From positions 1 through 26,271 of IMG/VR virus record IMGVR_UViG_3300048033_000677: a DNA stretch of 26,271 nt; one strand, 5' to 3'. Shown in pieces: positions 1,322-15,200 of this stretch (position 1 is the stretch's first letter; the number at the start of each line of letters is the position of its first letter). The position numbers and the translations under genes are program-made. The notes beneath the pieces are model-generated. The model did no database searches. It saw nothing but the letters and a program-made list of their open reading frames with translations, and was not told where the DNA came from. This stretch comes from a virus.

Positions 1322-1354
1322 CAACTTCTCGCATTTAGTTAAGATTTCTACAAC

Positions 1355-1405: not shown

Positions 1406-1413
1406 TATTTATA
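1406..1413 (-). promoter_or_regulatory. second T4-type late promoter octamer (TATAAATA)
   Basis: A second exact TATAAATA on the minus strand lies 51 bases upstream of the first one, in the same divergent region. It may be a tandem late promoter for the left structural block. An AT-rich octamer can occur by chance, so this one is less certain than the nearer copy. Confidence 0.45.
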
Positions 1414-1415
1414 GG

Positions 1416-1444
1416 TGTACAAAGCCATAGAAATATGTTATAAT
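1416..1444 (+). promoter_or_regulatory. sigma70-like promoter for the plus-strand operon
   Basis: TATAAT at 1439-1444 is a perfect -10. A TGTACA hexamer (4 of 6 to TTGACA) at 1416-1421 is separated from it by exactly 17 bases. It points at the kinase gene starting at 1478. This would make the plus-strand operon readable by unmodified host RNA polymerase, unlike the flanking late genes. No operator or transcription start evidence can be seen. Confidence 0.55.
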
Positions 1445-1477: not shown

Positions 1478-1924
1478 TTGAAGGTTTTAATTATGGGTCT
1501 TTCAGGTTCTGGTAAAACAACTTTAGCTAAAGAGCTAGCATACCATTTTGAGCTGCCTCATTATAACGCTGATACAATGCGAGAGGCATACGATGATTGG
1601 GATTTTTCTATTGAAGGTCGATTACGACAAGCAAATAGAATGGCCTCACAAGAATACGGAATATTAGATTTTATTTGTCCATTAGAGAAAACTAGAAATA
1701 TTGTTACACCAGACTCGATTATTTATATGGACACTATACAAAAATCCCTGCACGAAGATACAAACAAAATATTTGAAAAGCCTAATACAGGTTTAAGGAT
1801 TACACAATGGATACCACAAAGCCAACTACACAGCTCCTTGGAAGGTTTCAGCCCTGGCATCAAGGGCATACAGAATTATTTAGACGGGCCTTTGCAAAGA
1901 CTGGTCAAGTCGCTATCTTACTAA
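1478..1924 (+). CDS. adenylylsulfate-kinase-like P-loop kinase
   Basis: The 148-aa product opens with a Walker A loop (GLSGSGKTT, residues 7-15) directly after a beta strand. NAD..R at 30-35 and DWDFS...GR.RQA.RM around 40-55 match the pattern of phage proteins annotated as APS kinase (CysC-like), as does the DTI....EDTNK.F run at 86-99. CysC phosphorylates adenylylsulfate to PAPS, but relatives of this fold can use other substrates. The recognisable domain ends near residue 109. The last 38 or so residues are read out of frame over the start of the next gene, a 118-base overlap, and look unlike kinase sequence. The start is TTG behind a strong ribosome site. It is the first gene of the plus operon, under a sigma70-like promoter. 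An ancestral kinase-nucleotidyltransferase fusion split by an indel is possible. Confidence 0.75.
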   Translation: MKVLIMGLSGSGKTTLAKELAYHFELPHYNADTMREAYDDWDFSIEGRLRQANRMASQEYGILDFICPLEKTRNIVTPDSIIYMDTIQKSLHEDTNKIFEKPNTGLRITQWIPQSQLHSSLEGFSPGIKGIQNYLDGPLQRLVKSLSY

Positions 1925-2163
1925 GGGAACAAGATGGTACTAAAAAGAATCCTTTTGACTTTGAAGAAAGAACATACCAGATATCATATGCTCTAGATTT
2001 TGCTGGTTACCAGAGAGGGAAAGATTATGAAATTTATCTAGTTCCTAATATTACGCATATTACATATGGCCGCGATGTAGGTTATAGTATTAAACAAGAA
2101 CATTTAGGTGAAGACTTAGAATCAATTAGTGCATCTAAAATCAGAGAAAAAATACTAACATGA
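1807..2163 (+). CDS. HxGH-type nucleotidyltransferase (cytidylyl/adenylyltransferase-like)
   Basis: The 118-aa protein has the T-loop GRFQPWHQGH (residues 12-21, with HxGH at 18-21) and a C-terminal ISASKIR (107-113). These are the two nucleotide-binding signatures of the nucleotidylyltransferase superfamily, whose members transfer AMP or CMP from ATP or CTP to a phosphate- or sulfate-bearing acceptor. The middle section (NPFDFEER, NITHITYGRDVGY) resembles nucleotidyltransferase domains often found beside or fused to APS-kinase-like domains in marine T4-like phages (from memory). ATG 1807 has AAGGA seven bases upstream, so independent translation is plausible even though the gene begins inside the kinase frame. 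It overlaps the next gene as ATGA. The substrate is unknown. With a sulfotransferase next door, an APS-forming role is one option, but the protein lacks the usual ATP sulfurylase architecture. Confidence 0.75.
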   Translation: MDTTKPTTQLLGRFQPWHQGHTELFRRAFAKTGQVAILLREQDGTKKNPFDFEERTYQISYALDFAGYQRGKDYEIYLVPNITHITYGRDVGYSIKQEHLGEDLESISASKIREKILT

Positions 2164-2765
2164 AAATACTTATTACCTTTCCTCGGTTTGGTTCTACATG
2201 GATTCAAAAGTACATTAACAAAGAAAATAAAGATAAACACAATGCTTTAGATTTGTATGACTATTTTGGAAAAAAGAATCCTGGATCTGTAGAAGACAAA
2301 ATGTATTTTCTTCAGACTGAGCGAGATAGGGGACAAGAATACTCTGTAAAATATTTTACATATCATGCACCTGTTAAAACAAAATGGTTTACAACATTCT
2401 ATAAAGATGATACAATAATAAAGTTAACTCGTAGAGATGTGTATGGTGCCTATCTTAGCTATCTTACGCAGTATGTAACAGGCTGGAAATACCATAATGC
2501 TAAAATAAAAGACGATTTAAATACGTATGATAATGTGTGCAATGACCTATACATAACCCAGGAATCAATTGATGAATGGTTTTATAGATACGAAACCTTT
2601 TTGACGTTTAATAACTATGATCAAGAAATAATATATGAAGATTTTATACCTAATGATTCTTCGGTAAATAGCACTATTAAATATAATATTGATTATGAAT
2701 CCCGGATTAACAATATCACTTATGTGAAAGATGAATACAAAAGATGTATGAAATTATTAAATTAG
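2160..2765 (+). CDS. sulfotransferase-family protein
   Basis: The 201-aa protein begins MKILITFPRFGSTW. PRFGSTW at residues 8-14 fits the 5'-phosphosulfate-binding loop of PAPS-dependent sulfotransferases. IIKLTRRDVYGAYLSYL (86-102) fits the 3'-phosphate site, with Arg92 and Ser100 at the canonical spacing of eight. Such enzymes move sulfate from PAPS to a hydroxyl or amine on a sugar, tyrosine or small molecule. The protein is shorter than most (250-300 aa), as in compact phage and bacterial forms. No membrane segment is seen. Its start overlaps the nucleotidyltransferase stop as ATGA and its end overlaps the radical SAM gene by 22 bases, so it is an integral part of the operon. The acceptor is unknown. 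The neighbouring APS-kinase-like gene makes local PAPS supply plausible. Confidence 0.72.
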   Translation: MKILITFPRFGSTWIQKYINKENKDKHNALDLYDYFGKKNPGSVEDKMYFLQTERDRGQEYSVKYFTYHAPVKTKWFTTFYKDDTIIKLTRRDVYGAYLSYLTQYVTGWKYHNAKIKDDLNTYDNVCNDLYITQESIDEWFYRYETFLTFNNYDQEIIYEDFIPNDSSVNSTIKYNIDYESRINNITYVKDEYKRCMKLLN

Positions 2766-3784
2766 ATACCGAGATTACAAATAGGTGTAATGCTGCTTGT
2801 CCTCAATGCCCACGTACCGGTACTAATACCGGAGGACTGTCTGATATTATGAATAGATCTGGTATCTACGACGTTCCTGTAGAATCATTCGACAAGATAT
2901 TATGCTCGGCTGCTGGATTAAACATTAATAAAGTCACCTATTGTGGTAATTATGGCGATCCCATCATGCATCCTAAAGCAATGGAGATCTTTGAAAAGGT
3001 CGCAGGATACGGTGTAAAATATCAAAACATTGATACAAATGGAGGAGTTAGATCAGTTGAATGGTGGAGCCAATTAGGCAAAATTCCTGGTATGCATGTT
3101 ACCTTCGCTCTTGATGGTCTTGAAGATACCAACCACTTGTATCGCGTAAAAACTAAATGGTCTCGCATTATGGAAAATGTACAGGCATTTATAGAAGCCG
3201 GCGGGACAGCACATTGGATCATGATTGTCTTTAAGCATAACGAACATCAAGTGGAAGAAGCTGAGCAACTATCAAAAGAAATGGGATTTGAATCATTTAG
3301 TTATAAATTAACTACACGCAATTTTAATCCAAAGGTCCCAGGTAACCTAAAAGTTAACGACTATAAAAGAAAGAAAAGTGATAAAGTAATTCAAGCAGAT
3401 ATAGGTCTACCTAAGAATCCTAAGTTTCAACCGTCGCTTTTAAAAGATGGTCTTATAGAAAAACCAGTTAGCTGTATGGCAGAAAACACAAAGCAGGTAT
3501 ATCTAACGTCTGATAACAGAATCCTACCTTGCTGTCATGTTCAACCAACAATGTGGGAACGTAAATTTAAACCAGAAGAACATCGAAAAGAACCCGAGTT
3601 TGCTGACTTTATAGAAAACCAAAAGGTAATAACAGATTTAACCGATAATACATTTGATGCTATTATAGAAAGCTATACGACAGTTTACCCTGAGTTAAAG
3701 AATCAGTGGGATAAAAGAAATTTGAGTGTATGCAATAGAAAATGCGGGAGCAATTTTAAAAATGTTAAAGTACAATCTTCCTAA
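2744..3784 (+). CDS. radical SAM enzyme with SPASM-like C-terminal cysteines
   Basis: In the 346-aa protein C15-x3-C19-x2-C22 binds the radical SAM [4Fe-4S] cluster. GNYGDPIMHP (68-77) stands where the GGEP motif normally lies, and LDTEITNRCNAACPQCPRT is typical of SPASM-type radical SAM proteins. C-terminal cysteines at 244, 263, 264, 330 and 334 could bind auxiliary clusters. Members modify peptides or carry out sugar dehydrogenation and epimerisation; the substrate here is unknown. ATG 2744 is used, inside the end of the sulfotransferase gene. The protein is complete, with no missing cluster residue. It is clearly different from the other two radical SAM proteins of this window (4210-5409 and 10756-12162). 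Confidence 0.85.
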   Translation: MYEIIKLDTEITNRCNAACPQCPRTGTNTGGLSDIMNRSGIYDVPVESFDKILCSAAGLNINKVTYCGNYGDPIMHPKAMEIFEKVAGYGVKYQNIDTNGGVRSVEWWSQLGKIPGMHVTFALDGLEDTNHLYRVKTKWSRIMENVQAFIEAGGTAHWIMIVFKHNEHQVEEAEQLSKEMGFESFSYKLTTRNFNPKVPGNLKVNDYKRKKSDKVIQADIGLPKNPKFQPSLLKDGLIEKPVSCMAENTKQVYLTSDNRILPCCHVQPTMWERKFKPEEHRKEPEFADFIENQKVITDLTDNTFDAIIESYTTVYPELKNQWDKRNLSVCNRKCGSNFKNVKVQSS

Positions 3785-4217
3785 AATCATAGAAGAGCTT
3801 TCTCTTTTACCCGAGTATAATAACCAAATATACCTTCAGGGCAATACGCCATTCATGGATCCTATTGAACCAACAATAGGTCAAAACTATTTACATGTAG
3901 ATAATAACGAATTACAGTATGATCAGCCTTTATTTGACATGCCATACATTAATGAGATCATGGAAGAGCATCAATTAGTTCGGACCCGTGTAATGAAAAT
4001 GAAACCAAAAACTTGTTATTATTGGCATAACGATTCAACAAAGCGATTACATATTCCTATTGTAACACACGAACACTGCTTTCTTCTTGTTGATAATGAA
4101 CGCTTACATTTACCAGCAACTGGAGAAGCATATATCGTTGATACAACAAAAATGCATACAGCACTAAATGCAAGTAAGATAGATCGTATCCATATAGTAG
4201 GTGCTTTCAGTGTATGA
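3762..4217 (+). CDS. aspartyl/asparaginyl beta-hydroxylase-like 2OG-Fe(II) dioxygenase
   Basis: The frame opens at GTG 3726, but ATG 3762 is a better start (151 aa, GGGAG upstream, smaller overlap with the preceding gene). The core matches the AspH family. HND at 89-91 is the HxD iron pair, RLHIPI at 95-100 is the usual following strand, H132 is the distal iron ligand, and R142 is placed to hold 2-oxoglutarate. The family hydroxylates Asp/Asn side chains and, in bacteria, lipids, free amino acids or peptides. At 151 aa it is a minimal single domain. It lies between two radical SAM genes and its stop overlaps the start of the second, so all three probably act on one product. The substrate is unknown. 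Confidence 0.75.
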   Translation: MLKYNLPKIIEELSLLPEYNNQIYLQGNTPFMDPIEPTIGQNYLHVDNNELQYDQPLFDMPYINEIMEEHQLVRTRVMKMKPKTCYYWHNDSTKRLHIPIVTHEHCFLLVDNERLHLPATGEAYIVDTTKMHTALNASKIDRIHIVGAFSV

Positions 4218-5409
4218 CATACTCATTGTCTCTCTACCAGAAATGGATAAAGATAAACCTGCACCTGCATTAGGTTTCTTAAAATCATATATTGAACAGA
4301 ATGGCTTCAGTGTAAAAACTGTTGATGGGAATCAAATAGAAGATATAGATCTTATACATCTTACTATATCACAGTTTCCAGCAAAGTACATAGGTATTTC
4401 AGTTTTTTCTTATGAGCAAAAAGATATTGCTTTAGAGATAGGATATGAATATAACAATGTACTTTATGGTGGAAGTGGCGTACAATGTAATTGGCCTCAT
4501 GGTGATTATATTGTAGGCGAAGGTGAGTATGCACTACTAGAATACTTAAAGGGTAACAAAGATTATCCAGGTATTAATGGAAAGCCGCCACAACAAATAG
4601 ATAATTTAAACGATCTACCTCCACCTGATTATACAGAAATTCATGACGAACACAACTATGAATCAGCGGTCATATCCGGCTCACGTGGGTGTGTACGTAA
4701 TTGTACATTTTGTGACGTGGCGTCTATATGGCCCAAATATAGGTGGTGGGATGGTAAGACTTTAGCAGAGAATATGCATAAGCTTGCTGATCAAGGATTT
4801 AAACGTATATCTTTTTCTGATTCTCTTGTTAATGGTTCTATGAAACACTTTAGAACGCTGTGTGCTGAACTATCTAAAATAGATCGTAAGCTTAAATGGA
4901 ACGGTCAATTTATTATCCGTGCAAAGAATACATTTAAAGAATCTGACTTTGATAATCTTGCAAACTCTGGTTGTACAGGCCTGACTCTTGGTATAGAATC
5001 AGGTAATGAATCTGTACGTCATCATATGAGAAAGAAATTTACTAATGACGATCTTGATTGGTTCGTGACTAATCTTGGCAAAAGAAAAATTAAAATGAAG
5101 TTCTTATTAATTGTTGGTTATCCTACCGAAACTGAAGAAGACTTTCAAGAGACGCTTGACATGCTGCACAAATATAAAGAGTATTCAAGTACAACGGAAA
5201 TATCTCCGCACATGATGTTAATAGATAAAGGTACACCACTTGACTATGACCATAGAGAGTTATACGACGATTTTGGTTTTGAATGGTCTAACGAAAACTC
5301 TGACTATAAAGAAAGATATCGTAGATTCTTAAAGATATTTGAAGTAGGTCAAAGTTTAGGATATGGATTTAAGAAGCACGCGTTGGATAAGATTGAGAAA
5401 TTTGGATGA
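4210..5409 (+). CDS. radical SAM enzyme of the cobalamin-binding-type architecture
   Basis: The protein is about 399 aa. GTG 4210 is preferred because AGGTG lies six bases upstream; GTG 4201 is the alternative. The first 150 residues resemble the N-terminal Rossmann-like part of B12-binding radical SAM proteins (APALGFLKSYIEQNGF, VGEGEYALLEYL), but the DxHxxG cobalamin ligand motif is not evident, so B12 may not bind. C161-x3-C165-x2-C168 (in GCVRNCTFCD) is the cluster motif, followed by the family-typical FSDSLVNG and LTLGIESGNESVRHHM. Relatives methylate unactivated carbons or rearrange rings, and many are uncharacterised. It overlaps the stop of the hydroxylase gene and hands over to the carbamoyltransferase by ATGA. 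The choice between the two GTG starts is uncertain. Confidence 0.8.
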   Translation: MYDILIVSLPEMDKDKPAPALGFLKSYIEQNGFSVKTVDGNQIEDIDLIHLTISQFPAKYIGISVFSYEQKDIALEIGYEYNNVLYGGSGVQCNWPHGDYIVGEGEYALLEYLKGNKDYPGINGKPPQQIDNLNDLPPPDYTEIHDEHNYESAVISGSRGCVRNCTFCDVASIWPKYRWWDGKTLAENMHKLADQGFKRISFSDSLVNGSMKHFRTLCAELSKIDRKLKWNGQFIIRAKNTFKESDFDNLANSGCTGLTLGIESGNESVRHHMRKKFTNDDLDWFVTNLGKRKIKMKFLLIVGYPTETEEDFQETLDMLHKYKEYSSTTEISPHMMLIDKGTPLDYDHRELYDDFGFEWSNENSDYKERYRRFLKIFEVGQSLGYGFKKHALDKIEKFG

Positions 5410-6716
5410 TTATTGGATATTCTAACGGCTTCCACGATGCTGGAATGGCTGTTATTGATAATGGAAATATATTATATGCAGGTCATGCTGAAAGATACAG
5501 TAGAATAAAGAACGATAAAAATCATTCTATACTTATGCCACAGTATGACGGCAAAACTGTATTTTATGAAAAGCCACTTTTAAAAAATACTAGGCGAAAG
5601 TTTGCAGGACAAAGATGGAAGTCTCGTCCTAAATATGACAAATATGTATCTCACCATTGGTCACATGCCGCAGCATCTTATTACACAAAACCATTTACAA
5701 ATGAGCCGGTTTGTGTTATAGTAGATGCAATAGGTGAATGGGATACTATTTCTATATGGTATAAAAAGAAGAAGGTATGGTCTCGTAAATACCCGTATTC
5801 TCTTGGTTTATTTTATTCAGCCGTGACAAAGGCATGTGGATTAAAGCCTATGGAAGATGAATATATTACTATGGGTATGGCAGCATATGGAGAACCAGTG
5901 CACGCTCTAGATTATTTACTAGAAACAAATCTACATAAAGGTGTTCAACTTAATGGAAGGCCTGAAGATTTAGCTGCTTCTGCACAAGATACTCTTGAAA
6001 GAAAACTTATTGAGGTTATGCAAATCGCTCGTAAGTATTCATCATACTTGTGCTATGGCGGAGGAGTAGCACTTAACTGTGTAGCTAATAGTAAAATTCA
6101 AAATCTATTTGACGAAGTATGGATTATGCCGAATCCAGGAGATTGTGGTTCAGCATTGGGGGCTGCTGCAGCTGTATATGGTAAGCCTCTTAATTGGATT
6201 GATCCCTACCTTGGATACGATATTAAACGTGATATTAATCCGATATCTGTTGCAAGATTTCTTTCACAAAGTTCAGTATGTGGCATTGCTAATGGTAAGG
6301 CTGAGTATGGGCCAAGAGCATTGGGCAATAGATCTTTACTTGCAGATCCTCGTAAAAACATTAAAGATACTGTTAATAAAATAAAGAAGCGTCAGTTGTT
6401 TAGACCCTTTGCACCAGCGATTCTTGAAGAATTTGCTGAATCATATTTTGATGGACCAATGAATGAGTATATGCAATATACTTCACAAGCAAAACACGAT
6501 TATAAGTCTGTCACCCACGTAGACGGGTCCGCCCGTGTACAGGTAGTTAAAAAGAATTGTAGATCTATACTAAGACCTATATTAGAAGAATTCTATAATC
6601 AAACTAAATGTCCTATGTTACTAAACACAAGTCTAAACATTAAAGGTCAGCCTATGGTGAATACAATAGAGCACGCAAAAGAGTTCCAGAACAAATACAA
6701 AGTTAAAGTGTTTTAA
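5406..6716 (+). CDS. carbamoyltransferase, NodU/CmcH/TobZ family
   Basis: The 436-aa protein opens with GYSNGFHDAGMAVIDNG and HAERYSRIKND, the family's N-terminal Kae1/YrdC-like signature. It then shows VSHHWSHAAASYY (81-93), EDEYITMGMAAYG (150-162), GGGVALNCVAN (218-228), and the C-terminal domain signature KAEYGPRALGNRSLLADPR (298-316) with FRPFAPAIL (332-340). These enzymes transfer carbamoyl from carbamoyl phosphate, through carbamoyl-adenylate, to a hydroxyl on a sugar or antibiotic. At 436 aa it is shorter than the roughly 550-600 aa bacterial enzymes, yet both domains end naturally (LNTSLNIKGQP near the C-terminus). It is the last gene of the plus operon, starts by ATGA overlap, and its TAA interlocks with the stop of the convergent gene. 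Carbamoyltransferases have been reported in cyanophages; the acceptor here is unknown. Confidence 0.88.
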   Translation: MIIGYSNGFHDAGMAVIDNGNILYAGHAERYSRIKNDKNHSILMPQYDGKTVFYEKPLLKNTRRKFAGQRWKSRPKYDKYVSHHWSHAAASYYTKPFTNEPVCVIVDAIGEWDTISIWYKKKKVWSRKYPYSLGLFYSAVTKACGLKPMEDEYITMGMAAYGEPVHALDYLLETNLHKGVQLNGRPEDLAASAQDTLERKLIEVMQIARKYSSYLCYGGGVALNCVANSKIQNLFDEVWIMPNPGDCGSALGAAAAVYGKPLNWIDPYLGYDIKRDINPISVARFLSQSSVCGIANGKAEYGPRALGNRSLLADPRKNIKDTVNKIKKRQLFRPFAPAILEEFAESYFDGPMNEYMQYTSQAKHDYKSVTHVDGSARVQVVKKNCRSILRPILEEFYNQTKCPMLLNTSLNIKGQPMVNTIEHAKEFQNKYKVKVF

Positions 6717-8110
6717 TTCCAGAAATCTTTAATCCAATCATGCTTCTCCATTGCCTCTGTAATTAAGTTATCTGCATTTGAGAAGTGGACCATTTTAATC
6801 GATTCTGCAAAGTCTCCACCCATATAGTATGGCTCGCGTTTATTAACATCTTCGTTCCAATTCTTTTGAATCTTTAACCAATCATCTTCTTGCCATTTAG
6901 CAAACCATTTCATTGGTAACCATTCACGGTCAAGCTCTACATGCATGTCAATAAAGTTCTGTTCGCCATTAACTGGTCCTGTTGCTAATCCATTCTTAAC
7001 ATAGTAATTTTGCCAATGATCAGGGTTCTTACTAAATGTCATCCATAGTCTATGCGTATCTCCCATATAATACATCTGAAAGCCACCATTAATTTTACAT
7101 AAGTGTCTTAGATTAGACCACCATCTTTCAAAACAACCAAAAGTTTTCTCTGGTAAATCATAATCAAGTATATCATCGATATTACCTGTAATAATCCAGT
7201 CGATATCAAGTATAATACATTTTTCGCCAGTAGGTATATTAGCAAAATTTATTTTATGAAACTTAACTTTATGCCACTGTAAAGAAAACTCTGAAGGATC
7301 TTCTAACGGTACTACAACAATATCTTCATCTAATCCTGTAGAATCTTCAGTGTAACAATACAACGTGAATGGCGTTGTACTATTTTTCTTAATAGAACGA
7401 TATAAGTTATTTACGTACTCAGAACCATACTTAGTTCCCACTTTAAGAGTTAGTATATGAATCATTTTAGGTTTTACGCCTCCGTCATAAGAGCCAAATG
7501 CCCAATATTTTTCTTGACACCATTTACATTTTCTACACGGAATAGAATGTGATTCTGATGTACATGAAACTGTTAAATTATAATATTCTCCCATTAAATC
7601 AAATTTTTTATAGTGATAAGCAAAAAAACGTTTATCTACGTTTACATACGGCCGATACGTTAGCATCTGATCTTTTATAAGAGATTCTTTATTTCTAAAG
7701 CCTTTAATAAATTTTGGCCCGCGCTGAATAGAATTAATAACAATTGAATCGTTTCCTCCTGCAATATCAGCAATTTTTTGTAATATAGGTCCTTTGTTTT
7801 TATTTGTTGTTTCTGCTTTAAGCTTCCATAACTTAATTTTTACTCCGGCAAACTTACTTTCAACATATTTAATAAGTAAAGGAACTTTAGTTCCAGTATC
7901 CTCAAATCCATATGAAGTATTTTGCACGTAAATACAATTTAATATTTCATTAGTTCTCTTTTTATCATATAGGCATTTAGCCATAATATAAAGAGTTAAA
8001 GCGCTGTCAGTTCCACCTGATAAATGCATATAGTGATTAGTTTGTTTAGTAGTATTAAAGTATGTTTCAAACCAATCTACAGTATTTCCGCTATCATCTG
8101 TTAAAACCAT
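6713..8110 (-). CDS. fusion: PP-loop ATPase (QueC-like zinc motif) + GT-A-like glycosyltransferase
   Basis: The frame opens at TTG 8128. ATG 8110 (465 aa) is preferred, with AAGAG about seven bases upstream. Residues 1-213 form a PP-loop ATPase. SGGTDSAL near 31-38 binds ATP pyrophosphate, and C183-x8-C192-x2-C195-x2-C198 followed by WAFGSYDGGVK resembles the zinc site of QueC-type enzymes. From residue 216 (Met) a second domain starts as if it were a free protein (MIHILTLKVGTKYG), with CYTED and ILDIDWI, a DxD-type sugar-nucleotide and metal motif at 302-304. Each half has a clear separate relative in this window: the PP-loop gene at 9313-10020 and the plus-strand glycosyltransferase at 12761-13492. 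The start overlaps the SGNH hydrolase gene by 17 bases. Function is unknown. A PP-loop enzyme activates a carboxylate or carbonyl by adenylation, so the fusion suggests coupled activation and sugar transfer. Confidence 0.8.
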   Translation of the reverse strand: MVLTDDSGNTVDWFETYFNTTKQTNHYMHLSGGTDSALTLYIMAKCLYDKKRTNEILNCIYVQNTSYGFEDTGTKVPLLIKYVESKFAGVKIKLWKLKAETTNKNKGPILQKIADIAGGNDSIVINSIQRGPKFIKGFRNKESLIKDQMLTYRPYVNVDKRFFAYHYKKFDLMGEYYNLTVSCTSESHSIPCRKCKWCQEKYWAFGSYDGGVKPKMIHILTLKVGTKYGSEYVNNLYRSIKKNSTTPFTLYCYTEDSTGLDEDIVVVPLEDPSEFSLQWHKVKFHKINFANIPTGEKCIILDIDWIITGNIDDILDYDLPEKTFGCFERWWSNLRHLCKINGGFQMYYMGDTHRLWMTFSKNPDHWQNYYVKNGLATGPVNGEQNFIDMHVELDREWLPMKWFAKWQEDDWLKIQKNWNEDVNKREPYYMGGDFAESIKMVHFSNADNLITEAMEKHDWIKDFWN

Positions 8111-8828
8111 TGTACATCTCTTTTGCAATCATACTGTGACCTTTAAAGTTAGGATGAAGATCAAATATTGTGTCGCTGTACTTATGAAATCCAATACAAT
8201 ACTCAGACTTACCAACTTCTTTCATATATTTAGATGTAAACTTCCACCATATACTATTTTTATCATGATTAATTGCTAGATCACTTGGATCTAAAGAAAA
8301 CCTACATATATATTTTTTGTCTATTGTTTTTAGTAACTCATGCTTCTCAAGGTAAGTCTTTATTTCCTGTCGTTCCGTATTTTTTTCATAAAACCATAAT
8401 GGTTTAACAAGCTGTGTAATAACTAATTTTATACCTTTATTTTCACACAAATCTATTATAGCACGAATCCAACCTATTGTACAATCGATATAGTACTTAG
8501 AATTAAAATATGCATTATATACATCTAATAGTTTTTCTGAATGTTTAATAGATTTTTTCATAGTTTTAGTTGCTGAGTTCCATTCAGTATATTTAGACTT
8601 TGCTCCAAGTTCTAGCCTGTCCCAGTTAGATAAGCCAATAACAACATGCGTAATATCTGGGTTTAAAGATATCCCATATACAAAATTGCGGAATATAAAT
8701 TCATTACTCATTCCTTCTCGAGCGAGATTAAGTAAAGGCATTCCCATATTAAAAGATAGTATTTCTGGCCAAGGTCTATCATCATCCCAACGCTTTGCCG
8801 TAAAGCTATCTCCAACTGTTAATAACAT
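8094..8828 (-). CDS. SGNH/GDSL-type hydrolase
   Basis: The 244-aa protein begins MLLTVGDSFTAKRW. GDSF at 6-9 is block I with the nucleophile Ser8, Gly39 in AREGMSNE fits block II, GLSN at 65-68 fits block III (GxxN), and DLHPNFKGH at 223-231 is a block V-like catalytic Asp/His pair, here spaced D-x-H. The family hydrolyses or transfers esters, often O-acetyl groups on glycans. No signal peptide is present, so it acts in the cytoplasm or on nascent material. The start codon overlaps the stop of a 32-codon gene as TAATG, and its end overlaps the fusion gene by 17 bases. With glycosyltransferases on the same strand, deacylation or acylation of a sugar is the natural guess; the substrate is not shown. 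Confidence 0.75.
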   Translation of the reverse strand: MLLTVGDSFTAKRWDDDRPWPEILSFNMGMPLLNLAREGMSNEFIFRNFVYGISLNPDITHVVIGLSNWDRLELGAKSKYTEWNSATKTMKKSIKHSEKLLDVYNAYFNSKYYIDCTIGWIRAIIDLCENKGIKLVITQLVKPLWFYEKNTERQEIKTYLEKHELLKTIDKKYICRFSLDPSDLAINHDKNSIWWKFTSKYMKEVGKSEYCIGFHKYSDTIFDLHPNFKGHSMIAKEMYNGFNR

Positions 8829-8926
8829 TAATCATCATCCTCATAAATAAATTCATCACTAATATTTTTAAACTTTATATAATACCAGGTTTTAATCCTG
8901 TAGTACAATGTCTTTAAGGCGCTCAT
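8828..8926 (-). CDS. 32-aa micro-protein gene between an unknown gene and the SGNH hydrolase
   Basis: ATG 8926 lies inside the 3' end of the 146-aa unknown gene in another frame, with AAGGGA about six bases upstream. The frame stays open for 32 codons and its TAA overlaps the ATG of the SGNH hydrolase as TAATG. The product has a Tyr/Lys/Trp-rich middle (YYRIKTWYYIKFKN) and an acidic tail (DEFIYEDDD). The exact fit between neighbours, with both junctions of the type used elsewhere in this operon and a good ribosome site, is the main reason to call it real. There is no signal peptide. The middle could be a short amphipathic or membrane-associating helix. No family is recognised. It could be a small accessory subunit, a peptide substrate of the neighbouring enzymes, or a coupling leader for the hydrolase. 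Confidence 0.55.
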   Translation of the reverse strand: MSALKTLYYRIKTWYYIKFKNISDEFIYEDDD

Positions 8927-9332
8927 CGATATCCCTTTCGTCATAACCACAAAAAAACCAGCCGTTATCAGGTTTTTCTAATCTACAATTAGTTGTACAT
9001 TTTGATATAGCTTTAATTATAGCAATATTAGTTTCTATTAAGTACGGAAAATTTGCATAATGTGCAAAGTATTCTCTATAAAATTGTTTTGACATATAAG
9101 TTTCCCATTCTTTATAATGGTATTTTTTTATATTTTCACTGTAAAAAATTGCACCGTGGCCATGATACTTACTTTTTTTTCTATTCTCATATACAGCGTA
9201 CGCTATGATATTTGATCCATACATCATCTCAACAGCATCGAACGGCATTAACTCTATAGTTAAATCACTTATAGTATTTTCAGTTACATACCTAAGTATC
9301 TCTATGTTTGTTTTATTTAACTCCACCGTCAT
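8892..9332 (-). CDS. unknown protein, 146 aa
   Basis: The open frame runs upstream to 9449, but ATG 9332 is the likely start. It overlaps the PP-loop gene by only 20 bases and has GGA upstream, whereas the longer version would run 137 bases over the PP-loop coding end in another frame. The protein starts MTVELNKTNIEILRYV, has a predicted mixed alpha/beta character, and has a Tyr/His-rich middle (KYHGHGAIFY, KKYHYKEWETY). A late cluster of cysteines (SKCTTNC at residues 116-122 and WFFCGYDERD about 12 residues on) might bind metal. I recognise no family. It lies in a coupled run between the PP-loop ATPase and the 32-codon gene, so a role in the same pathway is likely, perhaps as an acyl- or amino-group-handling partner, but this is a guess. 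Confidence 0.7.
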   Translation of the reverse strand: MTVELNKTNIEILRYVTENTISDLTIELMPFDAVEMMYGSNIIAYAVYENRKKSKYHGHGAIFYSENIKKYHYKEWETYMSKQFYREYFAHYANFPYLIETNIAIIKAISKCTTNCRLEKPDNGWFFCGYDERDIDERLKDIVLQD

Positions 9333-10020
9333 ACATTCCAAATGCCCATTTTTTTTCTCTACACCACCAACATTCTTTACAGGGCTTTGTAAAGTAATCA
9401 GTCTTTTCTGCATATTCGACACATGATGCTGTAAGTGGGAATAACTCATCCATAAGATTAAACCTATGATACATATCTGCTACAAATCTTTTATCTACAA
9501 ATTCAAATGGACAATAGAAAGGTTTACCATGGTGTTCATGATATGGCTCTCGGTCGTTGCCGTGTTTATCTCTACGTTCTTCTCGCTTATACAATAGGTT
9601 ATAAGCTTCTGCTTCTTCTTTATCTGGATTTGCTGTACGGCCGTGGAACAATACATCAATCTTGCCTTCATCTCTTAATCTATTCTCATGTGCAGCATGA
9701 TGGTTTACTTTGTCTTTTTCATGCTCTTTATCATAATAGTCAAAGTAATGTTCGCCGAAATTTACATTAGGAAACATTTCTCGAAATAAGTCAGCTATTT
9801 CCCTTGCATTCCATTCGTTTGTTGGTCTAGCATTATGCACGCCAGTAATAAAATTGACTTGTGCATTAGACTCGCGCTCTGTTAATTCTTTGCATACCAT
9901 AAATGTAACCAATGAAGAATCAGCACCACCCGACAAGTTAATGCCAATCTTTTTAAATTCGTTTAATCTTGGATAAGGATCCCAAAAATCAACAGTGCCA
10001 TATTTAGATTCATATATCAT
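9313..10020 (-). CDS. stand-alone PP-loop ATPase with QueC-like cysteine motif
   Basis: The frame opens at GTG 10029. ATG 10020 is preferred, with AGGTGG six bases upstream and a TAATG overlap with the preceding gene, giving 235 aa. SGGADSSL near residues 31-38 is the PP-loop. The C-terminus carries C-x13-C-x2-C-x2-C followed by WAFGMYDGGVK and then stops exactly where the paralogue at 6713-8110 continues into a glycosyltransferase. The two share TVD[WF], VDKRF.A..Y..F.LM.E...LT.SC and the terminal motif, so they are true paralogues, although the middle is divergent. Here the middle is unusually rich in His, Glu and Lys. QueC makes preQ0 by amide and nitrile formation, but no queD, queE or folE partner is seen here, so another ATP-dependent amidation, thiolation or ligation is as likely. 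Confidence 0.8.
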   Translation of the reverse strand: MIYESKYGTVDFWDPYPRLNEFKKIGINLSGGADSSLVTFMVCKELTERESNAQVNFITGVHNARPTNEWNAREIADLFREMFPNVNFGEHYFDYYDKEHEKDKVNHHAAHENRLRDEGKIDVLFHGRTANPDKEEAEAYNLLYKREERRDKHGNDREPYHEHHGKPFYCPFEFVDKRFVADMYHRFNLMDELFPLTASCVEYAEKTDYFTKPCKECWWCREKKWAFGMYDGGVK

Positions 10021-10763
10021 TAATTCCACCTAACAACATTATCATTTAATGTTGGCCGCAATTTCATCCTTCCATGTTTAGAATCTGGTCCATCATAACA
10101 ATTAATATCTTTATATCCTAAACCCATAAATTTAATAATTTTATCGTCATTGTGCCATATCCTATTAACATTGAAATCATTCATAATAAAACAGCCACAA
10201 AAGGAAGAGTCAACATTATATTTACGAGCTATAACTGCAATAGCGTAGGCCTGAGCCATAGCTCCCTGATGCGCCTTAAAATTCATACCCTTAAGTGATC
10301 CATTATTAGGATTAACTTCTTCTGGTTTTTGTTTTCCAAATGTATACGGATTAAACGTAAATTTTAAAAGATACGGAGCTAGCACTTGGGTATTAAATGT
10401 AATAGGCTCTTCAAAAATTGAAAAGCCATCTTTTTTAACTTTACCAGTTTTTATAGCTTCCTCAAATATCTCTAAATCATTATGTAAAAGTTCAATTCCA
10501 GGCTGGCCTTTTTTCCTATTATCGAACATACTTCTATAAGCAATGTGTTCTACTGTTTGTACGCACACATCACGTTTATCTTCAGCATACTCAGGTCCAT
10601 ATACATCAACTCTATGATGCCACAGATTAGCAAATATTGGAGTTACTTTTAAAGATTCTTCTAAGATAGTATTAATTAAATCTTTACTAGGAATATCATC
10701 TTGCTTATAATAGCATGTGCTATATCTATCTGATATGCTATTGTATAATTCGTCGTTATTCAT
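10020..10763 (-). CDS. nitroreductase-like flavoprotein
   Basis: The 247-aa protein begins with LYNSISDRYSTCYYKQ.D.IP, which fits the N-terminal SI..R.S.R.F....I pattern of the FMN-dependent nitroreductase fold. A central AHQGAMAQAYAIAVIARKYN resembles the dimer and FMN helix region where LA...GLG.C usually follows; here it reads VDSSFCGCFIMN. The usual Arg residues for FMN phosphate are not all obvious, so the assignment rests on overall pattern and is moderate. Family members reduce nitro or quinone groups, oxidise azolines in peptide natural products, or dehalogenate. ATG 10763 has AAAGGA seven bases upstream and overlaps the radical SAM stop by eight bases. The stop overlaps the PP-loop start as TAATG. 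It may act as an oxidase or reductase in the surrounding pathway. Confidence 0.55.
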   Translation of the reverse strand: MNNDELYNSISDRYSTCYYKQDDIPSKDLINTILEESLKVTPIFANLWHHRVDVYGPEYAEDKRDVCVQTVEHIAYRSMFDNRKKGQPGIELLHNDLEIFEEAIKTGKVKKDGFSIFEEPITFNTQVLAPYLLKFTFNPYTFGKQKPEEVNPNNGSLKGMNFKAHQGAMAQAYAIAVIARKYNVDSSFCGCFIMNDFNVNRIWHNDDKIIKFMGLGYKDINCYDGPDSKHGRMKLRPTLNDNVVRWN

Positions 10764-12162
10764 AATACTTTCCTTTAAAATGTGCAGACCATTCTGGGAA
10801 ATGATTTAAAATATTATCATTACGCAGTTTATCTCTTGCTTTAATTCTTACAATCATCTCTTCGTATAAAGACTGATCAAACTCTCGCTTCTCAAGGTAT
10901 TCAATCGCCTTTGTACATTTTTGAATCATCTTAAAGTCTTGTGCATATAATCTATCAAGATAAAAATCTCTTACGTCATCTGGCAGTGACTTGAGTGTAA
11001 ACCAACGAGGCCGGGTCACATTAAAATAGCTTGGCATAATACCAAATTCTTCACCTGCTTTCATTGCCTCGTCGACATATCCAATCGATATAGGATTGAG
11101 CGTCATCGCAAAACCGATGTCAACATTAGGCAGAGAATTAATTAACCTAATGTTTCTTTCTACCTCATCCCATTTTGATGGGAATCTAATATAATCATTT
11201 TTTGGCCCCCACAGTTCCATGGAACATTTGTAATGGACTCTTTCAAAGTGTGATAAAAGCTCTTTGATTTTTTCCATTTTAGGATATCCATAGTTGTTAC
11301 TAAATATGAATAACTTTTTATCCTTAGCCCAACCTTCTTCAACACAACGTTCAAGAATCTGAATGTTTTGTTTAATAAGAAATGTCTCGCCACCAATAAG
11401 TTGAATACGCTTTGTCTTTTTAATATTACGCCAAAACTCCTCTTCATCTATTGCATTATCTTCATAGCGAATAAGCGGAGGTGTGAACGGAACTGTTGAT
11501 CCAGATCTTTGCTCTGATCTTAATTTGATTTCATCGGGAGTATATTCACCTAGTGCAATCCATTCTTCGGCAACTGAGGATGAATCTTCAGCAGAACACA
11601 TAAGGCATTTAAGGTTACAATAGTTGCCCCATACTTTTATTTGTGCAGTATGAATCTTGTCTGGAATAGGGTATTCAGCTGCAGGATTATTTTTAACAAA
11701 CTCTACAAGTCGATCAAGCTCTGCCATTTCTTCTTTATCATTTTTCATATCATTGTTATATGCAATACGCGGTGTAGGAAACCCTAGGTACTCAGTTTCA
11801 ATGCAGCGATAACATGTTTTAATTGTGCGATCGCGTTCTTTATTTCCATTAGCCATCTCTTCTCTAAGGCCAGCAAGCTCAGGTTGATTCCATACACCGT
11901 CAATACCTATCTCAGCAATATGTTTTTTAACGTTCATAGATGTATTGCAACACGGATGAGCAAACCCGTAAGTAGGGATATACATATGGATAAACGGTTG
12001 AGAACAAAAGAATGGTCCGTCTCGTTTAATTACGTCATCTAACATTTTTCCAATGTCAGGCTTATCTGATTGTACAGGAGAAACAGCAGTAGCATGATCA
12101 TCGGGATCTTGCTTAAGCTCAATGCGATTAAGCTTAATATCTTTTTTACTTTTAATCTTCAT
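10756..12162 (-). CDS. twitch-type radical SAM protein
   Basis: In the 468-aa protein C182-x3-C186-x2-C189 (VWGNYCNLKCLMC) is the radical SAM cluster site, GGETFL at 257-262 is the GGEP-like SAM-binding motif, and SNNYGYP follows. Upstream of the core, C53, C71, C72, C117 and C120 (FFCSQPF, AHPCCN, CYRC) form an N-terminal auxiliary-cluster region of the SPASM/twitch kind. I recognise this architecture from proteins called twitch-domain radical SAM in marine T4-like phages (from memory). It is the longest of the three radical SAM enzymes of the window. It starts at ATG 12162, overlapping the methyltransferase-like gene by 11 bases, with AGGAAG upstream. The substrate is unknown. Confidence 0.85.
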   Translation of the reverse strand: MKIKSKKDIKLNRIELKQDPDDHATAVSPVQSDKPDIGKMLDDVIKRDGPFFCSQPFIHMYIPTYGFAHPCCNTSMNVKKHIAEIGIDGVWNQPELAGLREEMANGNKERDRTIKTCYRCIETEYLGFPTPRIAYNNDMKNDKEEMAELDRLVEFVKNNPAAEYPIPDKIHTAQIKVWGNYCNLKCLMCSAEDSSSVAEEWIALGEYTPDEIKLRSEQRSGSTVPFTPPLIRYEDNAIDEEEFWRNIKKTKRIQLIGGETFLIKQNIQILERCVEEGWAKDKKLFIFSNNYGYPKMEKIKELLSHFERVHYKCSMELWGPKNDYIRFPSKWDEVERNIRLINSLPNVDIGFAMTLNPISIGYVDEAMKAGEEFGIMPSYFNVTRPRWFTLKSLPDDVRDFYLDRLYAQDFKMIQKCTKAIEYLEKREFDQSLYEEMIVRIKARDKLRNDNILNHFPEWSAHFKGKYYE

Positions 12163-12748
12163 TACGTATTCTTCCTATTACCATAAACCTGTTATATTCA
12201 CCCATACTCTTAAAGTCTTTATACCATGTTTTAGAAAAATCGTATTGACTTTCTAGCTCATCTTCAGATTCTACACAATGAGTATGATCATCTACTTCAT
12301 AATAATCATTTGATTGTACTGCATAGATTGCGGATTTAATATTAAGCGGTTTCATATGTTCAGCTGAAGTATTTATTACAAGATTAGAACCACAGTCGTA
12401 TTCTATATCGGTGGCGTCTCCATGGATCCATTTTATTTTTGTATGATTTTTAAAGAGAATTTCCTTTGCAATATACAAAGCTTCTTCATCTTGTTCTATA
12501 AAATGTATTTGTTTATATCCGATTGCATTATCTAGCATTGGTATTAGTTGATTACCATACCAGCCACCAATAATATAGATTCTTTCTATATTAGGTTTAA
12601 GCATACCCTGATGTTGTATCTTAGCAAGACGCTTTACCAACCAATTCTTACAATAAATCTTTTTATAATCAAAAGAATTAACGATATCGACTGCACGATG
12701 TGGAAACTTTTTAATTGCCCGTTGTGTATGTTCATCCATTGTAAACAT
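12152..12748 (-). CDS. SAM-dependent methyltransferase-like protein
   Basis: The 198-aa protein has a Rossmann-like core. IYIIGGWYGNQLIPML (58-72) is a glycine-rich loop after a strand, IHFIEQDEEALYIAKE has an acidic residue (Glu85) at the end of strand 2, and WIHGDATDI carries Asp111. SNLVINTSAEHM follows as motif IV. This is the order seen in class I methyltransferases, but the loop is GGxxG and the protein lacks a clear substrate domain, so it could be a degenerate or non-methylating member. It begins at ATG 12748 with only a weak ribosome site, 12 bases from the divergent glycosyltransferase start. Its end overlaps the radical SAM gene, so the two are probably co-translated. The methyl acceptor is unknown. 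Confidence 0.6.
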   Translation of the reverse strand: MFTMDEHTQRAIKKFPHRAVDIVNSFDYKKIYCKNWLVKRLAKIQHQGMLKPNIERIYIIGGWYGNQLIPMLDNAIGYKQIHFIEQDEEALYIAKEILFKNHTKIKWIHGDATDIEYDCGSNLVINTSAEHMKPLNIKSAIYAVQSNDYYEVDDHTHCVESEDELESQYDFSKTWYKDFKSMGEYNRFMVIGRIRNED

Positions 12749-12760
12749 GATATATAACCC

Positions 12761-13492
12761 ATGATAAATGTTATATGCGTGAAATGGGGTACTAAGTACT
12801 CTGCCTCTGACGTTAATCGCTTAAAGCGTAACGTTGAGAAATACTTAACAATTCCACACAAGTTTATTTGCTATACCGAAGATCCTACAGATCTTAAGTG
12901 TGATACTATATCTATACCTCCAGATAATGACCTAGAAGTATGGTGGAATAAGCTAGCAATGTTTCAAAAAGACTTTGTTGAAGGGACTTGCCTGTTCTTT
13001 GATATTGATGTAGTTATCCAAAACAATATAGATCATATTAAAGATTATTTATCCGATAACTTAACAATGGTTCGTGCCTATTGGAAAGGAGACTTTGTTA
13101 CAGATGGGTCTTCATCAAAAGAAAAGGAACGATGGGACATGTACGTCAACTCATCATGTTTACTTTGGAAGGCCGGATCATTAGATTACATATGGGATTA
13201 TTTTGACGAGAATGCAGATTACTATATGATAAAATATAAAGGCATTGATCGTTTCTTATTTCATGAAGGATTTGATTTAGATTTTTTTCCACAAGGATTA
13301 ATATATTCTAGGCTTGCCGGAATATCTGAAGAAAACATTGGATATGCGCAGAAGGTAAAGAATGAAAAGAAAACAACTATGCTTCCTTATGACGAACTTG
13401 ATTTGTTTAATATCCCAGAAGCTTTAATATGCTTATTTAATGGTCCTACAGAAGATTGGATGTACGACAAATACCGGCATCATTGGGAATAA
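12761..13492 (+). CDS. GT-A-like glycosyltransferase, inverted in the minus-strand run
   Basis: The 243-aa protein begins MINVICVKWGTKY and carries CYTED (37-41) and LFFDIDVVIQNNID, with the DxD-type motif at 81-83. These match the C-terminal half of the fusion protein at 6713-8110 (VGTKYG, CYTED, LDIDWI..NID), so the two are paralogues. The C-terminal part (SCLLWKAG, FLFHEGFDLDFFPQG) fits the acceptor side of small nucleotide-sugar transferases. The gene lies on the plus strand among minus-strand genes. It is divergent from the methyltransferase-like gene with a 12-base gap, and its 3' end overlaps the oxygenase gene by 13 bases. No convincing promoter or strong ribosome site is visible, so how it is expressed is unclear. 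The sugar donor and acceptor are unknown. Confidence 0.75.
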   Translation: MINVICVKWGTKYSASDVNRLKRNVEKYLTIPHKFICYTEDPTDLKCDTISIPPDNDLEVWWNKLAMFQKDFVEGTCLFFDIDVVIQNNIDHIKDYLSDNLTMVRAYWKGDFVTDGSSSKEKERWDMYVNSSCLLWKAGSLDYIWDYFDENADYYMIKYKGIDRFLFHEGFDLDFFPQGLIYSRLAGISEENIGYAQKVKNEKKTTMLPYDELDLFNIPEALICLFNGPTEDWMYDKYRHHWE

Positions 13493-14097
13493 AGGTCTTC
13501 ACACATCATTTCCCACATATTTTTATCAGGTATAACAAACCCAAGGGTTAGTCTATCCTCATGTGCCCTTGCGCAATGCCAATAGATATCATCTGGTTCA
13601 TCATTAGAACCATAGTATCCAACTTTAGCAGTCCAACCTGGAGAATCATAAAGAGTAACGATTTCTTTTGTTGCTGGATCTTGATACCTAAACCAACCAT
13701 CACCATTTTGAGTATAAGACAATAATATATTGTAACCTGGCACGTTGTGATTATTGTGCCATCCCATATAACCACCAGATGGATAATACATTTTTACTGC
13801 ATTAAATTTAGATCCAAAGAACATATTTAAATTTTTTGTTACATCAGTAATCATATCTCTAAATTCAAGGGGAGTTGATTTAATATCAGTTAGATCTACA
13901 CCATGTGCCTTTTCAGGATAGCCTATGTGTGTTTCTTTATTGATAGAATCTAGATATTCGTCTGATGTATAATATTCATTTTCATCAAGTTCACCATTAA
14001 GATTAATCAGTGAACGATCTTGTTTAAAGAACCAGTCAGAAAACGGTTCTACAATATCTAATACTTCTCTGTTCAATCCACCTTCAATAACTTTCAT
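13480..14097 (-). CDS. phage 2OG-Fe(II) oxygenase-like protein, with Asn at the usual acid position
   Basis: In the 205-aa protein the double-stranded beta-helix core is visible from YYPSGGYMGWHNNHNVPGYN (residues 104-123) through NILLSYTQNGDGWFRYQDP to WHCARAHEDRLTLGF (173-187). H114 and H174 are the likely iron histidines and R182 the 2-oxoglutarate arginine. Position 116, where most hydroxylases have Asp or Glu (HxD), reads Asn. The protein may therefore bind iron differently or be altered in chemistry, although I have a weak memory of similar H-x-N motifs in marine phage relatives. AAGGA sits about seven bases before ATG 14097, and the gene is almost continuous with the glycosyltransferase upstream. 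Possible roles are hydroxylation of a small molecule, protein or nucleobase; context favours the tailoring pathway. Confidence 0.72.
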   Translation of the reverse strand: MKVIEGGLNREVLDIVEPFSDWFFKQDRSLINLNGELDENEYYTSDEYLDSINKETHIGYPEKAHGVDLTDIKSTPLEFRDMITDVTKNLNMFFGSKFNAVKMYYPSGGYMGWHNNHNVPGYNILLSYTQNGDGWFRYQDPATKEIVTLYDSPGWTAKVGYYGSNDEPDDIYWHCARAHEDRLTLGFVIPDKNMWEMMCEDLYSQ

Positions 14098-14098
14098 A

Positions 14099-14785
14099 TT
14101 ATGTCCTTATAGTATGATGATAAACAACAATAGGTTTATCTGTTTCATCTTCTCTATATGTATTAATAAAATTCCAGCGAGCATCATCATCTAAGAACTC
14201 GCGTTTAATTTTTAAATCAGTTTTATTTTGAATCCACCAGTATGTCCATTGATCCCACGGCCGTAACTTTTCTGGGTATAAATCAGTATCCCATTGCCAT
14301 TCACCTGACGCTTGTTTTAAATACAGGTCATACCATTCTTTCATAAATGCCATAGTTCTTTTATTTTTCTTATACATGAACATGCCACAATGATCAGTAA
14401 GATTGCCGCCTGGAAATTCTGATATTTTGCCAGAATACGGCCGAATTTTTGTAATCATTATGTCAGCATTATTCTTATACTGGTCAAACAATAGATGAAT
14501 GTCTTCATGTTGGATTTCTGTATCAGAATCCAGGTAAACAGTGTTTTTATACGGGGTTTTACTTAAAGCCCAGAGTTTGGCTCTAATATTGTCTGGAACA
14601 TCTTCGTATACTACATTATCAAATATATCATATAGATCATCTGTTACCCACCGTTTATCAGTAAACAGTGTTATGTGCGCTTCCGGATAATAATCTTTTA
14701 ATGATATCGCAGAATAAAGTGCACCAGCTAAAAACTTTTTGTTGACAGTTGCAACATATAAAAAGCCTTTATTCGCTTTCTCCAT
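14099..14785 (-). CDS. GT-A-fold glycosyltransferase
   Basis: The 228-aa protein has LYVATVNKKFLAGALYSAISLKDYYP at the N-terminus, ITLFTDK, IRAKLWALSKTPYKNTVYLDSDTEI with the DxD motif at 86-88, and a C-terminal WDQWTYWWIQ..T acceptor-side region. This is the layout of GT-A glycosyltransferases that use a metal and a nucleotide sugar. It differs from the other two glycosyltransferase modules of the window. ATG 14785 overlaps the end of the preceding structural-type gene by 17 bases, with AAGGA eight bases upstream. This places the first enzyme of the metabolic run in direct translational contact with the late structural operon, so it is probably expressed late. The target is unknown: virion protein, lipid-linked glycan or small molecule. 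Confidence 0.78.
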   Translation of the reverse strand: MEKANKGFLYVATVNKKFLAGALYSAISLKDYYPEAHITLFTDKRWVTDDLYDIFDNVVYEDVPDNIRAKLWALSKTPYKNTVYLDSDTEIQHEDIHLLFDQYKNNADIMITKIRPYSGKISEFPGGNLTDHCGMFMYKKNKRTMAFMKEWYDLYLKQASGEWQWDTDLYPEKLRPWDQWTYWWIQNKTDLKIKREFLDDDARWNFINTYREDETDKPIVVYHHTIRT

Positions 14786-15200
14786 TATTCATTTCCTTTG
14801 TAACCAATGCTGAAGTCAATACCATGACTTCCATAATATTTTTAGCTTTTCTAATTCGTGATTTTAGTACACGATCTTTTGAGCTTTTTACTTCTTCAAT
14901 TTCAAATGCTTCAAGCTTTGCATTAAACAATGCACCCGCCATATCGACTTCTACGGCTTCTTTCTTTTGAGCTTCTTCAATTTCTTTGTGGCGTTTCCGC
15001 TCTGATGCAAATTTTTCTGTAGCAGCATCTAATTCTTCCATACCGAAAGTTTCAATGATTTCAGCCCAGTCAGGATTACCGTCTTCAGTATCCATAACAG
15101 AAGCCTCTAGCACTTCTCCTGAATCATAATGAAATTGACATACAATTTTTGTTTTTGTTTCGTCAGCCCAAAATGGGTGTTTTATAGTTCTATTTGTCAT
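14769..15200 (-). CDS. conserved phage protein with charged coiled-coil middle, 143 aa
   Basis: The frame opens at TTG 15218, but ATG 15200 is the start. It forms TAATG with the preceding stop and has GAGGA upstream. The first half (HPFWADETKTKIVCQFHYDSGEV) looks like a small beta domain. Residues 60-130 are strongly charged and helical (ASERKRHKEIEEAQKKEAVE, VKSSKDRVLKSRIRKAKN). No enzyme motif is present. I do not recognise a named family, but proteins of this look sit next to fibre and tail genes in marine T4-like phages, so an assembly or tail-accessory role is likely. It is the last structural-type gene before the enzyme run and its end overlaps the glycosyltransferase gene. Confidence 0.7.
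   Translation of the reverse strand: MTNRTIKHPFWADETKTKIVCQFHYDSGEVLEASVMDTEDGNPDWAEIIETFGMEELDAATEKFASERKRHKEIEEAQKKEAVEVDMAGALFNAKLEAFEIEEVKSSKDRVLKSRIRKAKNIMEVMVLTSALVTKEMNNGESE

Follow-up and report, generated by a model that had tools for sequence, protein, structure and literature searches.

Marine phage glycosyltransferases are usually taken to modify the host surface or DNA. The closest described setting for the locus studied here is the host recognition cluster of pelagimyophages, which lies between VrlC and the neck genes (its neck-side border being the neck protein gp14), is hypervariable, and holds glycosyltransferases and radical SAM cassettes (Zaragoza-Solas et al. 2020, PMC7029224). 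We analyzed a 26,271-nt stretch from a T4-like marine phage (IMG/VR record IMGVR_UViG_3300048033_000677; hereafter the window, to which all coordinates refer), in which an enzyme island occupies positions 1478-14785. As in that cluster, the island is hypervariable and follows the baseplate protein VrlC directly within the structural region; the window ends within the tail-fibre gene S1, and the neck genes lie beyond its end. Among isolates, the window's VrlC is closest to those of Pelagibacter phages Mosig and HTVC008M (37-38% identity), and a near-identity search of the window against named phages returned no match. Because the region corresponds to the published cluster, the island as such is not new. 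What is new is its internal logic, in which a fixed core is tied to the repeats of a fibre-like protein while the other enzymes are exchanged.

An earlier note on this DNA had described an island of tailoring enzymes between two blocks of tail genes. The island is real: 17 open reading frames (ORFs) lie between S4 and S3, packed almost gap-free across 1478-14785, and most are backed by family, profile, motif or model evidence. Families were scanned in Pfam, NCBIfam and PHROG, supplemented by profiles and AlphaFold2 (AF2) models built in this analysis. We conclude that the island is probably a fibre-modification locus, with a core of four genes (S5, S4, GT17 and 2OG16; hereafter the quartet) and optional cassettes. 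The genes on which this conclusion turns are as follows.

15200-16315, minus strand: S5, fibre-like protein with three LQEM modules and C-terminal YxG repeats, the proposed substrate (no known family; within the tail operon)
15263-15535, minus strand: (Y/F)-x-G repeat segment of S5, 17 motifs over residues 261-351 (from sequence)
14769-15218, minus strand: S4, small protein, companion of the enzyme island (co-occurrence in complete intervals)
14099-14785, minus strand: GT17, GT8/glycogenin-like glycosyltransferase (AF2 model, fold search and profile)
13480-14097, minus strand: 2OG16, prolyl-hydroxylase/AlkB-fold oxygenase with an H-x-N...H...R motif (AF2 model and fold search)
989-1324, minus strand: S3, L-shaped-tail-fibre-assembly family, right border of the island (phrog_3304, E = 8.9e-18)

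S3 bears out the structural flank on one side. On the other side S4 is presumably structural, and the functional unit extends past 14785, taking in S4 and S5 up to 16315.

VrlC and several of the island genes served as queries to collect relatives from IMG/VR (the S4 profile was too diverse to be used in this way), and more than 100 related phages were compared. Their usual gene order was VrlC, S7, S6, S5, in some cases an epimerase, S4, the enzymes, S3, S2 and S1; in L102, L103 and L106 some enzymes also sat between S5 and S4. At 115 scorable loci, a YxG-repeat S5 and the GT17-2OG16 pair were either present together (67 loci) or absent together (48 loci), with no mixed case. The comparison stays inside a single fibre family, in one position and beside the partner S4. 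On the tree, nine of nine independent contrasts agreed (p = 0.0039). This final test pooled in an added VrlC-anchored sample free of the repeat criterion, with scoring tightened to loci reaching S4 or S3; the first test, on 86 rows of which two were not cleanly scorable, had been underpowered (p = 0.125). Fifty relatives, the window included, had a complete VrlC-S3 interval, and in these both enzymes occurred in 23/23 intervals with YxG versus 0/27 without.

Scans started from the repeat and from the oxygenase gave similar pictures. Searching IMG/VR for the (YTGx)3 DNA pattern returned 120 loci. Of these, 106 contained a repeat ORF (S5) or some other member of the quartet, and 14 contained no repeat ORF; every repeat ORF was an S5. 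S4, GT17 and 2OG16 lay downstream of 62 of the 64 distinct repeat ORFs having at least 2.5 kb of downstream sequence, and the two exceptions ran off the fetched DNA. Among the matches listed in a scan with the 2OG16 alignment, GT17, S4 and YxG were upstream in 51 of 54, two more had degenerate repeats, and one was inverted. A locus outside the tree set (L073) has GT17 and 2OG16 beside an S5 with degenerate repeats, which calls for caution about how strict the link is.

The quartet also appears to be inherited together. Pairwise distances correlated at 0.85-0.89 among its members and at 0.68-0.75 with VrlC, with partial correlations of 0.67-0.79 (72 loci). In L377, VrlC is 50% identical to that of the window and GT17 and 2OG16 are 73% and 77% identical; in L013 the corresponding values are 77%, 41% and 45%. 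These comparisons indicate that the four genes are exchanged between backbones together, with physical linkage contributing. L377 (contig NHBR02000105.1) is binned as a Muricauda metagenome-assembled genome and is a phage fragment with the island, likely mis-binned. A minimal natural version is found in Phage C48C1, where a 3347-aa YxG S5, S4, GT17, 2OG16 and then S3 follow each other with no other island enzyme between. C48C1 was the only one of 50,697 named phage records with relatives of S5, GT17 and 2OG16, whereas IMG/VR holds at least 591 stretches related to 2OG16, so the system is widespread.

S4 tracked the enzymes more generally. All 37 complete intervals bearing S4 contained enzymes, versus none of the 13 S4-free intervals by profile recognition. 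The methyltransferase-like MT14 was present in 36/37 and 0/13 of these, respectively, and a GT15/GT8C-type transferase in 36/37 S4-bearing intervals. On the VrlC tree, eight of eight independent contrasts supported the association of S4 with enzymes (p = 0.008), and S4 is possibly a fibre-assembly factor. The VrlC-S3 interval had a median length of 7.3 kb; at 17.2 kb, that of the window is among the largest and the richest in recognized enzymes.

S5 matched no known family in the PHROG, Pfam and NCBIfam scans. Its YxG-bearing and YxG-free forms are homologous over the LQEM modules (hhalign 97.7%). Across 96 proteins, the first repeat position is Tyr in 80% and Phe in 19% of cases, and the second is Thr in 49%, Ser in 20% and Ala in 13%. 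With 80% Tyr at the first position and 69% Thr/Ser at the second, both are possible acceptors. S5 can be a giant protein with dozens of YxG repeats, the largest being about 3,700 aa long, or can occur in tandem (L188, L190, L243, L239 and C48C1, which is L176), so repeat number varies widely.

The two core enzymes were assigned by their predicted folds. The AF2 model of GT17 (pLDDT 95) had glycogenin as its best Foldseek match (E = 8e-11, TM 0.6, 20% identity), ahead of UGGT and LgtC, and its profile also matched glycogenin (E = 0.002). The DxD metal motif, D86 and D88, was invariant in 55 sequences. These results identify GT17, at the level of its model, as a GT-A fold glycosyltransferase of the GT8/glycogenin type. 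Glycogenin glucosylates a tyrosine, and a glycogenin-like GT17 therefore fits a partner with tyrosine repeats. The 2OG16 model (pLDDT 95) has the double-stranded beta-helix fold of 2-oxoglutarate (2OG)-Fe(II) oxygenases and matched P. putida P4H, PHD2 and AlkB (E = 4e-5 to 1e-3, probability 1.0 or close). Residues H114, N116, H174 and R182 are invariant (H-x-N...H...R), and the HxD/E...H iron triad was not found, Asn standing at the usual iron-binding Asp. Among the matches listed, WHxN occurred in all 165 members in which a motif was found, and two had no readable motif. 2OG16 may work like a 2OG oxygenase, yet we do not file it as a canonical hydroxylase. Stand-alone relatives with WHTN, an HxN oxygenase-like family, occur on bacterial contigs (L382, L383, L385, L386, L387 and L390) assigned to Halieaceae, Luminiphilus, Cellvibrionaceae, Planctomycetaceae, the PVC group and Thiobacillus.

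We propose the following mechanism. S5 would be a fibre close to the baseplate, with the (Y/F)-(T/S/A)-G repeats at its C-terminal end as the substrate, and S4 would help to present or assemble it. GT17 would draw on a host nucleotide-sugar to glycosylate the repeat, with tyrosine as first candidate acceptor and Thr/Ser as second, and 2OG16 would oxidize the repeat or the sugar. MT14 and the small glycosyltransferases (GT15/GT8C) might then extend or cap the glycan, which radical SAM (rSAM), PP-loop, carbamoyl-, sulfo-, SGNH, AspH and nitroreductase cassettes would optionally diversify. The established part of this picture is genomic: conserved order, co-occurrence, concerted gain and loss, and folds were observed. 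From these we infer that S5 is a virion fibre and the acceptor, which of its residues takes the sugar, the nature of that sugar, the reaction of the oxygenase, how the steps follow each other and what the cassettes do. Of the roles suggested in the earlier note, decoration of the virion is favored because the conserved set is tightly linked to the S5 fibre.

Several observations weigh against this proposal. S5 is placed in the virion by its context. Phe in 19% of repeats means that Tyr could not be modified at every unit, and Ala likewise replaces Thr/Ser at 13%. The fold matches of 2OG16 are low in TM score (0.3-0.4), and its Asn for Asp leaves hydroxylase activity not assured. Loci with a YxG-free S5 still carry MT14, glycosyltransferase and rSAM genes, which may therefore act on something else. 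Enzyme absence was judged by profiles built from relatives of the window, and since neighboring genes recombine jointly, linkage alone could yield part of the distance correlation.

The remaining enzymes behaved differently from the quartet. In the 50 complete intervals we counted rSAM4 14 times, rSAM13 11, PP-loop 9, carbamoyltransferase and SGNH 4 each, AspH 3, rSAM6 and nitroreductase 2 each, and kinase/nucleotidyltransferase once. Cassettes differ between phages with 94% identical VrlC, yet recur in diverged phages; the block rSAM4-AspH-rSAM6-carbamoyltransferase is found in L073 at 53-67% identity in another genomic setting. The earlier note had proposed a single full pathway and comparison of the same position in related phages. 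That comparison revealed a conserved set (S5, S4, a glycosyltransferase and MT14, joined by GT17 and 2OG16 where YxG is present), but most enzymes turn over gene by gene, and the note's reading is right in part. We accordingly rejected one fixed 15-enzyme pathway, and the sporadic cassettes do not support a single fixed small-molecule pathway. Two products were also considered, the first of them tentatively disfavored and the second set aside. For a ribosomally synthesized and post-translationally modified peptide, no Pfam or NCBIfam match named a precursor peptide or a recognition element (RRE), with no dedicated small-ORF or RRE search made; for a queuosine-type product, the PP-loop genes match QueC weakly and no partner genes appear.

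Among the enzyme labels given in the earlier note, three radical SAM enzymes, carbamoyltransferase, PP-loop, nitroreductase, glycosyltransferase and 2OG oxygenase hold up, and sulfotransferase and SGNH hydrolase rest mainly on motifs. The other features of the island and its right border are listed below.

1406-1414, minus strand: T4-late-type CTATAAATA upstream of tail gene S3 (consensus match only)
1416-1444, plus strand: sigma70-like extended -10 promoter candidate for the plus-strand enzyme block (consensus match only; such matches not in excess overall)
1478-1924, plus strand: P-loop kinase half of a kinase/nucleotidyltransferase pair (phrog_10255 residues 3-102)
1807-2163, plus strand: nucleotidyltransferase half, cytidylyltransferase-like, overlapping the kinase ORF (phrog_10255 residues 125-227)
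2160-2765, plus strand: possible sulfotransferase (PRFGSTW motif only)
2744-3784, plus strand: rSAM4, radical SAM/SPASM-like enzyme (PF04055 above cut-off)
3726-4217, plus strand: AspH, Asp/Arg beta-hydroxylase-type 2OG oxygenase (PF05118, 34.4 bits, cut-off 22.6)
4201-5409, plus strand: rSAM6, similar to B12-binding radical SAM of the PhpK/HpnJ type (family scans)
5406-6716, plus strand: NodU-type carbamoyltransferase (Pfam E = 2e-47 and 2e-37; phrog_1601)
6713-8128, minus strand: PP-loop domain fused to a small glycosyltransferase domain (family scans and profiles)
8094-8828, minus strand: SGNH/GDSL-like hydrolase (mainly GDS...DLHP motifs; one sub-threshold Pfam match, E = 0.1)
8892-9332, minus strand: 146-aa protein of no assigned family (start taken at 9332 instead of 9449)
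9313-10029, minus strand: PP-loop ATPase of the QueC/NadE/asparagine-synthetase superfamily with a C-terminal Cys cluster (weak family match and profiles)
10020-10763, minus strand: NR, nitroreductase-like flavoprotein (profile to nitroreductase 3gfa, E = 5.5e-6)
10756-12162, minus strand: rSAM13, radical SAM with an N-terminal twitch/SPASM domain (NCBIfam NF033640, 273.8 bits, cut-off 170; profile to SkfB, viperin and BtrN)
12152-12748, minus strand: MT14, methyltransferase-like (weak Pfam match)
12761-13492, plus strand: GT15, small glycosyltransferase (phrog_1962)

The kinase and nucleotidyltransferase ORFs (1478-2163) lie in different frames, share 118 nt and correspond to successive halves of PHROG 10255; they are fused in L159 and form two ORFs in L160. 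The possible sulfotransferase had no sulfotransferase match in the family scans and no relative in any locus. The true start of the 8892-9449 ORF is probably 9332. In our profiles the PP-loop pair has invariant SGG.DS and C..C.WC. Behind radical SAM genes of this family in L007, L011, L017, L090, L102, L103, L106 and L064 (Mosig 37348-38314) there is often a separate ORF of ~100-125 aa, which in those read has a Cys-rich C-terminal part resembling SPASM/twitch, as if the enzyme were split in two. Far from the present context, the jumbo Vibrio phage K566 (L177) has three close genes annotated as radical SAM (149587-174747), one of them ~25% identical to rSAM13. At 1406-1444 the promoter candidates stand back-to-back, the T4-late type directed at S3 and the extended -10 sigma70 type at the plus-strand enzymes, hinting at different timing of the two. 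Neither the T4-late nor the sigma70 scan gave an excess over shuffles, so timing is only suggestive.

Glycosyltransferases of the pelagimyophage cluster have been proposed to modify host O-chains (PMC7029224). Applied here, the enzymes would change lipopolysaccharide (LPS) O-chains of the infected cell and block superinfection, a serotype conversion. O-chains commonly bear carbamoyl, sulfo and O-methyl groups, GT8-type enzymes include LPS transferases such as LgtC (lower in the GT17 fold list), and a sigma70-like promoter candidate precedes the plus-strand block. However, a role at the host surface would not lead one to expect gain and loss of the enzymes in step with S4 and with the fibre's YxG add-on. 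Pfam and NCBIfam scans did not recover the nucleotide-sugar synthesis genes plus Wzx/Wzy/WaaL-type membrane proteins of an LPS O-antigen cluster: no island protein matched a nucleotide-sugar synthesis, flippase, polymerase or ligase family. Nor does any contain a hydrophobic membrane segment, so cytosolic protein modification fits better than O-antigen export, and we regard action on the host surface as unlikely.

A serious possibility, short of being likely, is that two systems share one hotspot: the quartet, with MT14 and glycosyltransferases, decorating the fibre, and an independent cargo of rSAM, PP-loop, carbamoyl and kinase genes making a small molecule, cofactor or modified peptide. This agrees with fibre modification as far as the quartet is concerned and differs on the cassettes. 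The rSAM, PP-loop and carbamoyltransferase genes are indeed sporadic and independent of YxG state, the plus-strand block is inverted with its own promoter candidate, and blocks such as that in L073 keep high identity across diverged backbones. Yet enzymes of the rSAM and PP-loop types also tailor glycans, the cassettes were confined to S4-bearing intervals among the 50 complete ones, and family scans, with no dedicated small-ORF search, recognized no precursor peptide or scaffold gene. The strong turnover of most genes between close relatives might even suggest a recombination hotspot gathering unrelated morons, with no functional unit. The quartet has a fixed order and co-occurs without exception, as does S4 with enzymes, and concerted gains and losses happened independently. 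This makes a hotspot with no functional unit very improbable, and for the quartet it is already disfavored.

The strict, phylogenetically repeated link between fibre repeat type and a transferase/oxygenase pair turns fibre modification into a concrete substrate hypothesis. Its most specific form, on which we place tentative and rather doubtful weight, is a glycosylated tyrosine-repeat fibre in marine T4-like phages, with GT17 attaching sugar to the Tyr of YxG alongside an unusual HxN oxygenase and exchangeable glycosyltransferase, methyltransferase, rSAM, PP-loop, carbamoyl and sulfo enzymes then building a strain-specific fibre coat, a phage counterpart of O-antigen variation. If true, the phage adhesion apparatus would carry variable surface glycans. 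This would matter for competition between phages, for grazing, for lectins and for the choice of receptor, and it would bring in an HxN oxygenase family as well as a class of proteins with tyrosine repeats. No tail-fibre system based on tyrosine repeats, or on combined hydroxylation and glycosylation, turned up in literature searches.

Compared with known systems, the locus shares its position after VrlC, hypervariability, glycosyltransferases and radical SAM cassettes with the pelagimyophage cluster. In the passages of that paper considered here, host O-chain modification is inferred, and S5/S4, the YxG repeat, the GT17-2OG16 pair and concerted gain and loss are not described (PMC7029224). 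At the equivalent place, Mosig EXVC030M (MT647606) has a different enzyme island, with VrlC, S5/S6-like genes, an epimerase and S4 followed by nitroreductase, PP-loop/glycosyltransferase, methyltransferase, carbamoyltransferase and rSAM genes; its S5 lacks YxG, and aminotransferases and other enzymes take the place of GT17 and 2OG16. HTVC008M and Melnitz have only tail or hypothetical genes there. C48C1 (OQ984149) has the giant YxG S5, S4, GT17, 2OG16 and S3 in the same order, but no rSAM, PP-loop, methyltransferase or carbamoyltransferase between S4 and S3. We know of no oxygenase partner in the virion glycosylation of mycobacteriophages. That system likewise places phage glycans on virion proteins, as far as it is described, but at capsid and tail-tube C-termini rather than on a repeat fibre (Freeman et al. 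2023, cited in PMC12619734). Finally, glycogenin shares with GT17 its fold and DxD motif and, we suspect, a protein-tyrosine acceptor; the two are 20% identical, and GT17 would modify another protein rather than itself.

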